From the NCBI GenBank assembly GCA_027448805.1, contig DAIDMU010000083.1:1-38729 (forward strand): a DNA stretch of 38,729 nucleotides, in the 5' to 3' direction. This document shows positions 1,878 through 4,884 of the stretch, one piece after another. The notes under the pieces were generated by a model that ran no database searches, was not told where the DNA came from, and saw only the letters and a program-made list of their open reading frames with translations. Origin of the DNA: Sulfurimonas sp. GTDB lineage: Bacteria; Campylobacterota; Campylobacteria; Campylobacterales; Sulfurimonadaceae. The position numbers were made by a program, and so were the translations under genes. Position 1 is the stretch's first letter. Every line of letters begins with the position of its first letter.

Positions 1878-3974
1878 TTATATCAGACTTAGTCCGACTT
1901 TTCCTTTTTCTTCATCTATTGAGACAACCTCGATTTGAGGCAGATATTGGTTTAGCGAGAGAACTTCAAGCGGATGAGAGATTTTTGTTGCACTCATTTT
2001 TGATATATGAATCATCCCGTCATTTTTCAGCCCAATGTCCACAAAAGCGCCAAAATCCGCAATATTTCTGACAACGCCTGAGACAAAACTACCCACACTT
2101 AGCATTTTAATATCCGTTATGCCGTCCTTAAACGGAATAGGCGGCAACTCTTCTCTTGGGTCAAAACCGGGCTTTTGCAGCTCTTTTATGATATCTTTTA
2201 GCGTCTCTTCTCCGACACCAAGCTCCGCAGCTTTTTGTTTAACATCAACAGTTGCCAAGTCAAGAGCGAGAAGTTTTTTAGCAACTTCATAACTCTCAGG
2301 GTGAATTCCGCTGTTGTCAAAAATGTTTTTGCCATTTTTGATGCGAATAAATCCGACAGCCTGCTCATAAGCTTTTTTGCCCAAACCTTTTACTTTTAAG
2401 AGCTGCTCTTTTGTTTTAAATGCCCCATTCTCTTCTCTAAAAGCGATGATGTTTTGCGCCACTTTTGCTCCAACGCCTGCGATATAAGCCAGAAGCGAAG
2501 CCGATGCGGAGTTTATATCTACACCCACGCGGTTAACCAAATCCTGTGTAACATCAGTCAGTTTTTTCTCTAAAAGTTTTTGGTCAACATCGTGTTGATA
2601 CTGCCCGATACCCAAACTTTTCGGGTCTATCTTAACAAGTGCGGCCATCGGGTCTTGAAGCCTCTGCGCTATTGAGATAGCGCCTCTTATGGTTACATCA
2701 AGGTTTGGGTACTCCTGCGAAGCTATCTTTGAAGCGGAGTAGACGGATGCACCCGCTTCTGAGACGACCGTATAGTTTAGTTTTGTATTCTCATCTCTGT
2801 TTAGTCGGGCAAAAAACTCTTGCGTTTCGCGTGAGCCTGTTCCGTTTCCGATGGCTACACCCGTGATGTTATACTTGTTTGTTAGTGTTATAACTTTGTT
2901 TTTGGAGTTTTCGTAATCCCTTTGAGGCTCTGTCGGGTAGATGACGCACGACTCAAGGTAGTTGCCGTTCTCATCTATAACGGCCAGTTTACACCCAGTT
3001 CTAAAAGCGGGGTCAACTCCTAAGATAACTCTTTTTGTAACAGGCGGAGTCATAAGAAGCTGGTTGAGATTTTTTCCAAAGACGGATATCGCGGCTATAT
3101 CTGCTTTTTCTTTTAACTCAGAGTGAACTTCTCTCTCAAGCGATGGAAGCAAAAGCCTTTTCAGCCCATCTCTGTATGCTTCAAGAAGCAGTTCCTTTGA
3201 ATTCAAAGCATTGCGAGGTATTTTGTACTCTTTGATGTTTTGCTCTAAGCGTTCTACATCTATGGTTATCTTTACTGAGAGCTCTTTTTCATTAACTCCG
3301 CGCATTATGGCAAGATAGCGGTGAGACGGAATGTAAGCGACTTTTTCGCTTTTGCCGACAAAGTTTTTAAACACTCCGTTCTCATCAAAATTCTTTGTTT
3401 TTTTGACCTCTAAAACACCATGTCGGAGCATATTGTTTCGGATGGCTTCACGCTCACGAGGCATATCTGCATAACGTTCAGCTAAAATATCCTGCGCGCC
3501 TCGCACGGCTTCATCTACCGATGCAACATTGCCTTTTACAAACTCTTTTGCCTTTGATTTAAACTCTTCAAGACTTAGCTGTGCTTTTTCTAAAATGTTA
3601 GCAAGGGGTGTCAGTCCATTTTCTATGGCAGTTGTGGCACGGGAGTTTTTCTTCTCTTTGTATGGACGGTAGATGTCTTCCAAAACACGCAGACTCTCTG
3701 CTTCATCTATGCTTTTTTTGATAGCTTCGCTCAAAGTCGCTCTCTCGGCTATCAGCCTTGAGATCTCTTCTTTTCGTTCCAAGAGTTTTTTTGCACCGAT
3801 ATAGATAGTTTCAAACTCACGAAGTACTTCATCATCCGCTCCGCCCGTCATCTCTTTGCGGTAGCGGGCAATAAAAGGGATAGTCGAACCCTCATCAAGA
3901 AGTTTTAAAATGTTTTCTACATGCTCTTTTTTTAAAGCAGTTTTTTTGGTTAGTAAATTTATTAAATTATTAAT
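1878..3974 (-). CDS. tex: Tex-family RNA-binding protein, probable ATT start
   Basis: Tex is a nucleic-acid-binding transcription accessory factor. Visible parts are the N-terminal helical Tex region, the YqgF/RNase H-like core (GVDPAFRTGCKLAVID), helix-hairpin-helix motifs (SASLLAYIAGVGAKVAQNI and KGLGKKAYEQAVGF), and a C-terminal S1 domain (VSGVVRNIADFGAFVDIGL). The first ATG, at 3851, lies inside the conserved IPFIARYRKEMTGG motif, so it cannot be the true start. The frame is open upstream and encodes family-like residues (LKKEHVENILKLLDEGST) but has no ATG, GTG or TTG. The best start is ATT at 3974-3972, overlapping the upstream TAA, with AGGA seven bases before it. That gives 698 residues, a normal length. 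The product call is secure; the start is inferred. Confidence 0.9.
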   Translation of the reverse strand: MNNLINLLTKKTALKKEHVENILKLLDEGSTIPFIARYRKEMTGGADDEVLREFETIYIGAKKLLERKEEISRLIAERATLSEAIKKSIDEAESLRVLEDIYRPYKEKKNSRATTAIENGLTPLANILEKAQLSLEEFKSKAKEFVKGNVASVDEAVRGAQDILAERYADMPREREAIRNNMLRHGVLEVKKTKNFDENGVFKNFVGKSEKVAYIPSHRYLAIMRGVNEKELSVKITIDVERLEQNIKEYKIPRNALNSKELLLEAYRDGLKRLLLPSLEREVHSELKEKADIAAISVFGKNLNQLLMTPPVTKRVILGVDPAFRTGCKLAVIDENGNYLESCVIYPTEPQRDYENSKNKVITLTNKYNITGVAIGNGTGSRETQEFFARLNRDENTKLNYTVVSEAGASVYSASKIASQEYPNLDVTIRGAISIAQRLQDPMAALVKIDPKSLGIGQYQHDVDQKLLEKKLTDVTQDLVNRVGVDINSASASLLAYIAGVGAKVAQNIIAFREENGAFKTKEQLLKVKGLGKKAYEQAVGFIRIKNGKNIFDNSGIHPESYEVAKKLLALDLATVDVKQKAAELGVGEETLKDIIKELQKPGFDPREELPPIPFKDGITDIKMLSVGSFVSGVVRNIADFGAFVDIGLKNDGMIHISKMSATKISHPLEVLSLNQYLPQIEVVSIDEEKGKVGLSLI

Positions 3975-4884
3975 ATTTTTTTCCTACGCACTCTATAAAA
4001 TCTTTTTCGCTCAAATCTTCTATAAGAATTTTAAAATTTTTAAATGCAAATAGTTTTATATCTTCGCCCTTTAGGGCTTTTAGCTCATTTGAGAAACCGC
4101 CTTTTGAGATAATTACCGAGATGTCAGGTGTAAGCTCTGCCGCTTCACACTGCTCTTTTAATTTTGTAAGCTCGCTCTTTTTTGCTTTTTGGCTGGAGTA
4201 TTTGCATATTCCCGCAACGATTTTGCCAGATTTTGTTTTTGCCAGAATGTCTATTTGCGTATTTCTGTCCCAATAGCTTCCTATTTCTACTATGGCGTCA
4301 TCTTTGAAGCTTTTTTTCATAACTTCCATCGAGAGTTTTTTAAATGTAAGCTCGTAAAACTCGCTCTTGCGGTTAGCAAACGACTCTTTTGCCTCTTTAA
4401 AATCGCCATCTTTGATGCTTTTGAAGTATGGTGATATAAAAGCAAACCAAAAACGCATAAAAGGGGTGCTGAAATTTAGTTTCTCATCAATCTTCTCATT
4501 CGAATCAGGCGGAGATTCCAGCGGAAATTCAGTTTTTATGATATTTTTACTGCAAAGCGTATCAATGGCAACTTCGCCCTCATTTCTTGAGATTCTGGCT
4601 CTCTTGAGTGCTGAATGAACTCTTCCGTCTCCAACCGCAACGGCACTAAGAAGCGAGTGGCTTACCTTGTCACTCTGCGTAATCTTTGTAATATCTCCGT
4701 GAATGTATGTGTAATTTTTTAAAATTTTACTCTCAATCAACTCTTCAAGGCTTTTTGTCATGTCAACGCCCCAACTCATACCGCCAAAAACTGAGAAATA
4801 CTCTATTGCCTGCTCCAAATCTTGCGGCTTGTTTTGAAAGCAGAAAGAGCGAAACTGCTCCAAAAGTGAAGGGTATTTTGCCAT
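3970..4884 (-). CDS. DUF234 protein without an ATPase domain (PD-(D/E)XK-like fold)
   Basis: A 304-residue cytoplasmic protein. The N-terminal half is helical and winged-helix-like. The motif PFMRFWFAFISPYF (about 141-154) and the following region match DUF234, usually found at the C-terminus of archaeal-type AAA ATPases. Residues 200-230 have the layout of a restriction-endonuclease-like core (E200, D206, D212, then ICKYS at 226-230), but the expected E-x-K is I-C-K, so the catalytic glutamate seems lost. No Walker motifs are present. Its stop overlaps the inferred ATT start of tex, implying translational coupling. A TATAAT on the minus strand (4917-4912) is a likely promoter. Function unknown. 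Confidence 0.65.
   Translation of the reverse strand: MAKYPSLLEQFRSFCFQNKPQDLEQAIEYFSVFGGMSWGVDMTKSLEELIESKILKNYTYIHGDITKITQSDKVSHSLLSAVAVGDGRVHSALKRARISRNEGEVAIDTLCSKNIIKTEFPLESPPDSNEKIDEKLNFSTPFMRFWFAFISPYFKSIKDGDFKEAKESFANRKSEFYELTFKKLSMEVMKKSFKDDAIVEIGSYWDRNTQIDILAKTKSGKIVAGICKYSSQKAKKSELTKLKEQCEAAELTPDISVIISKGGFSNELKALKGEDIKLFAFKNFKILIEDLSEKDFIECVGKKY

Follow-up and report, generated by a model that had tools for sequence, protein, structure and literature searches.

The window, a 38,729-nucleotide stretch of a Sulfurimonas contig (GenBank DAIDMU010000083.1; contig C83 of genome G000), carries on its minus strand a gene for the RNA-binding protein Tex (toxin expression), which directly follows a gene for a DUF234-domain protein. 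The features of this junction are:

1878..3974, minus strand: tex coding sequence, 698 aa from the ATT and 657 aa from the first ATG, with the Tex Pfam domains; the single tex in this genome.
3970..4884, minus strand: DUF234-domain protein gene, the upstream partner of tex; 304 aa, Pfam PF03008.
3970..3974, minus strand: ATTAA, a 5-nt stop/start overlap between DUF234 and tex (ATTAG in L046).
3972..3974, minus strand: inferred tex start codon ATT; no other near-cognate codon has a conserved position close to where relatives have ATG, and all 18 loci have ATT.
3982..3985, minus strand: AGGA, a Shine-Dalgarno-like motif (SD) 7 nt before the ATT and within the DUF234 reading frame; its GG is invariant in 18/18.
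3984..3986, minus strand: in-frame TAG that closes the tex frame four codons upstream of the ATT.
3849..3851, minus strand: first in-frame ATG, codon 42, the internal Met of ARYRKEMTGG and the likely pick of an ordinary gene caller.

Read on the minus strand, the tex frame runs TAG (3986-3984) GAA AAA AAT ATT (3974-3972) AAT AAT TTA ATA and onward. Between this TAG and codon 42 it contains no ATG, GTG or TTG, and the ATG at codon 42 lies 41 codons past the ATT. The DUF234 gene ends in TAT TAA (the TAA at 3972-3970); ATTAA (3974-3970) is common to both genes, and the ATT is composed of the final two bases of the DUF234 tyrosine codon and the first base of the DUF234 stop. The predicted protein, with an expected N-terminus of (M)NNLINLL, has the Tex_N, Tex_YqgF, HHH_3, HHH_9 and S1 domains, all above the Pfam gathering score and in the order (Tex_N, YqgF-like, HHH, S1) by which members of the Tex family are recognized. 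Residues 3-75 of the ATT-started protein align with positions 2-74 of the 75 positions in the Tex_N profile; the conserved domain therefore begins at the ATT. Gene callers do not look for AUU starts, so that the annotated Tex of these genomes would lack its first 41 residues. The original prediction, made from this DNA alone, had placed the start at an ATT overlapping the DUF234 TAA with AGGA 7 nt before it, and had described a conserved N-terminus upstream of the first ATG that offers no ATG, GTG or TTG. Its coordinates are right to the base, and the frame reading and the Tex_N alignment bear out the remainder.

We compared tex relatives from Sulfurimonas-type genomes and from the wider Campylobacterota. 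Eighteen distinct Sulfurimonas-type loci, two of them in single-contig genomes (G012 and G062), have ATT at the exact homologous start codon. Nearly all other relatives have ATG at that codon, rarely GTG (L027) or TTG (L075), and a few start with ATG a few codons away from it. Aligning the N-termini of relatives, as had been proposed, revealed that the ATT, the overlap and the SD are kept in 18 related loci. Relatives with ATG at this codon, which the original prediction had counted as potential evidence against itself, occur only outside both groups of ATT loci (see below) and mark the true start position instead of contradicting the ATT. Given that the window assembly is fragmented (122 contigs, 87.9% complete), one could suspect that tex is a pseudogene or that the ATT arose from faulty sequencing or assembly; however, the same ATT in 18 distinct loci, including single-contig genomes, rules out both chance and sequence error, and the tex frame is intact and under purifying selection. 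The comparative data refute this reading, and its probability is vanishingly small. In 400 kb (352 genes) sampled from a related complete genome, only the tex junction combined an ATT/stop overlap with a long stretch (41 codons) free of canonical starts; one weaker candidate in this sample had 23 codons.

Two further observations concern other tex genes. In two genomes of the same genus tex is split in two open frames (G010:C4:88035-90115 and G051:C68:19359-20475); these may be pseudogenes or assembly errors. A tex outside the ATT clade (L089:2030-2110, JAOXRY010000045.1) also has no ATG, GTG or TTG before its conserved N-terminus, and has an ATC two codons upstream with AAAGG 8 nt before the ATC. 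This gene may have acquired a non-AUG start independently, or the sequence may contain an error.

Nine of the 18 ATT loci lack any canonical start (ATG, GTG or TTG) in the interval from the upstream in-frame stop to codon 42, and only three triplets in this interval are common to all 18: with the ATT counted as position 0, these are the ATT itself, an internal isoleucine ATT at 21 and the ATG at 41. One alternative is that translation begins at another near-by codon, either a GTG five codons upstream of the ATT, present in frame in 8/18 loci, or codon 5, which is ATA or ATC in several. However, neither codon is kept across the loci: in the window the GTG is absent and codon -4 is TAG, and codon 5 is ATA, GTA, ATC, GTC or ACA across loci. 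Furthermore, there is no SD upstream of the GTG; the SD lies downstream of it, at a spacing optimal for the ATT only. On this comparison the GTG, being unconserved and upstream of the SD, is not the common start, and we regard a start at either codon as very unlikely.

A second alternative takes the ATG at codon 42 as the start, giving a Tex that lacks 41 N-terminal residues. This ATG is the sole canonical start position common to all 18 loci, and a standard gene caller would choose it; however, most relatives that start at the upstream ATG have it too, as the codon of an ordinary internal methionine, and it is not preceded by a spaced SD (AAAGAG directly adjoins it). Also, the residues that would be missing belong to the Tex_N domain, and codons 2-41 are under full purifying selection: across the 18 ATT loci pN/pS is 0.176 for codons 2-41 versus 0.188 for codons 43-290, and 0.20 for codons 2-11. 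Purifying selection on the N-terminal stretch is as strong as on the remainder of the gene, and indicates that the stretch is translated. At the junction the variable columns flip, mostly, from the third codon position of DUF234 upstream to the third codon position of tex downstream. A start at codon 42 is highly improbable. At the homologous start these loci have ATT and no usable ATG, GTG or TTG; translation in this Sulfurimonas group almost certainly starts at the ATT, the normal start codon having been lost, as judged from the alignments.

The conservation of the ATT is partly explained by DUF234, whose tyrosine and stop codons supply its bases. A change of the terminal tyrosine codon to TAC would turn ATT into ACT, and this codon is TAT in 16/16 ATT loci usable for the count. 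Of 12 conserved tyrosine columns in DUF234 and tex, the terminal one alone has TAT throughout; 10 of the others contain both TAT and TAC, and the remaining one has only TAC. In DUF234 orthologues that do not overlap tex, the terminal tyrosine is TAC in 6/10 (overlapping versus non-overlapping, Fisher p 0.0006, relatedness ignored). Similarly, of 17 conserved glycine columns only the DUF234 one inside the SD is limited to GGA/GGG and never has GGT or GGC; none of the other 16 is so limited. RNA folding around the tex start revealed no shared structure. The alignments document the position, conservation and constraint of the putative start codon and SD, and both appear to be conserved beyond chance and beyond the demands of the overlap and the DUF234 protein; the evidence, which is modest, rank-based and drawn from related loci, is supportive rather than conclusive.

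The overlap with the DUF234 stop is present in all 18 ATT loci (17 ATTAA, 1 ATTAG), giving the co-directed genes with conserved stop/start overlap expected of a translationally coupled pair. In one of these loci (L009, on contig C4 of G004) a 1-nt frameshift ends DUF234 115 nt before tex, which would break the coupling; the same genome also has an in-frame stop in both gyrB and EF-G, and given these stops the frameshift is probably a sequence error. In ATG-started relatives (L250, L251, L252, L255, L258 and L262) the order of DUF234 and tex is fluid, and the intervening genes are a minus-strand gene, a pheA-like gene or a small gene of ~115 aa. The close junction also raises the possibility that ribosomal frameshifting or transcriptional slippage on the A-rich stretch before the overlap yields a DUF234-Tex fusion. 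In the window GGAAAAAAAT (7 A) does directly precede the DUF234 stop, but this run is not conserved, with GAAAGAGAT and GAAAAAGAT in other members, and none of the loci read had a DUF234-Tex fusion. A fusion would need a +1/-2 shift, whereas a classical -1 slip on A AAA AAA would not lead into the tex frame; a -1 frameshift fusion is ruled out by this frame arithmetic together with the non-conserved A run. Fusion by any such route is exceedingly improbable.

The ATT loci do not form a single group. The tex protein tree unites the 16 main ATT loci in one clade (100/99) and places L015 and L046 elsewhere; a topology in which all ATT loci are forced together is disfavoured (AU p 0.028). The gyrB+EF-G tree also separates the ATT groups (p 0.0035), as does the DUF234 tree with the missing sister genomes added (p 0.0017). 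As reconstructed from these three gene trees, ATT is found in two non-sister Sulfurimonas clades. Sulfurimonas crateris is an example of a cultured ATT-clade strain. Horizontal transfer of the junction had been suggested by a first DUF234 tree, which joined both ATT groups, and was rejected: the joining was a sampling artefact, since the groups separate once DUF234 from G055, G032, G063 and G042 is added. A sliding-window comparison of identity gave no clear recombination breakpoint. Two histories fit: two gains of the ATT overlap, which would be the shorter count, or an older origin followed by at least two losses. The second group has sister genomes, G055 and G032, in which tex starts with ATG and is separated from the upstream DUF234 by 1.3 kb. 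In L049/G099 and L054 DUF234 ends in TATTAA, followed by three bases and then ATG (TATTAA-TCT-ATG or TATTAA-GAT-ATG), and these junctions plausibly represent a precursor of the ATT arrangement. Judging from such sister loci, the origin was likely a small deletion or substitution in the short intergenic spacer, which would remove the ATG and leave a ready-made ATT with an SD at working distance.

Taken together, tex is very probably translated from the AUU at 3974-3972 with the assistance of the SD, most likely by ribosomes directly after their termination on DUF234. The ATG of most relatives has been replaced in two lineages by an ATT that belongs to the final tyrosine codon and stop of DUF234 (TAT TAA). 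The SD (A/G-GGA) in the 3' end of DUF234, 7 nt upstream, would hold the ribosome; ribosomes ending DUF234 would stop on the UAA, one base from the AUU, and some of them would re-initiate there with initiator tRNA. Because AUU initiates weakly and IF3 counteracts its use, Tex would be made in modest amounts, in proportion to the translation of DUF234. We infer this re-initiation, the low yield, the coupling to DUF234 and the sensitivity of tex to IF3 from the arrangement of the junction. A more specific, and rather doubtful, possibility is that the -5 nt overlap (ATTAA/ATTAG) arose twice in Sulfurimonas and was kept by selection as a throttle, the weak AUU being read mainly by DUF234-terminating ribosomes to give a low, fixed Tex:DUF234 ratio. 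If true, a class of overlap thought to be excluded would here have its first conserved example in nature.

Starts at ATT, ATC or ATA are seen for infC in other bacteria. We found infC in 126 of the 135 genomes searched, and in the 20 Sulfurimonas genomes in which its start was read (L175-L194) this is TTG (TGAGGTAAATTTTTG); the E. coli-type, ATT-based signal for IF3 autoregulation is therefore absent from those 20. The E. coli infC has an ATT start with IF3 autoregulation (PMC5472188), and re-initiation in E. coli decreases when IF3 is overexpressed (PMC2268962).

To our knowledge, very few natural AUU starts have been established; those of infC and pcnB in E. coli are known. As far as sequences can tell, the window tex is a real, conserved and new natural case. 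Our literature search, in which most subscription journals lay outside coverage, returned no description of ATT starts in tex or in Sulfurimonas. The case leaves a clean evolutionary record, with ATG in relatives, ATT in two lineages, and a start and SD that appear constrained.

Non-NTG starts in Staphylococcus aureus include cvfC1 (AUU), and ccpN and infC (AUA); the AUU and AUA starts of cvfC1 and ccpN, with strong SDs, reach about 10% of the AUG versions (PMC13009471). In E. coli, AUU was reported to rank seventh among the 64 codons, with about 0.3% of the yield from AUG (Hecht et al., as cited in PMC10666635). The infC/pcnB and cvfC1/ccpN cases and tex are alike in having a conserved non-NTG start that replaces AUG and an upstream SD, and low, IF3-sensitive initiation is to be expected in each. 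Tex differs in that it is another gene, one base of its AUU also belongs to the upstream stop, its start is deduced by comparison, its SD is short (A/GGGA) as opposed to extended, and infC in its genus starts with TTG. The GTC start of Streptomyces sigR, which is repressed by IF3, is similar to that of tex in being lineage-conserved, missed by ordinary annotation and limiting for the protein level; however, the codon is GTC and not ATT, the accessible part of the sigR report describes no such overlap with an upstream stop, and the sigR start was proven there by Edman sequencing, mutagenesis and IF3 titration (PMC5472188), whereas that of tex comes from comparing genomes.

The DUF234/tex junction also resembles the -4 (ATGA) and -1 (TAATG) termination-reinitiation overlaps, in which co-directed genes have overlapping stop and start codons and coupling is usual (PMC10666635, PMC12548453). 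In contrast to these, the overlap here is -5 nt, which NTG starts cannot form. A survey of 1,695 species found -5 nt overlaps to be more than 1000-fold rarer than -4 overlaps, and attributed them to annotation error or rare ATT starts, with ATTAA, ATTAG and ATTGA as the possible forms (PMC10666635). The ATT loci described here supply two of these three forms, ATTAA (17) and ATTAG (1), and provide a conserved example of a class that the survey held to be excluded or an annotation error. The tex junction makes it testable whether termination beside a weak codon rescues AUU initiation.
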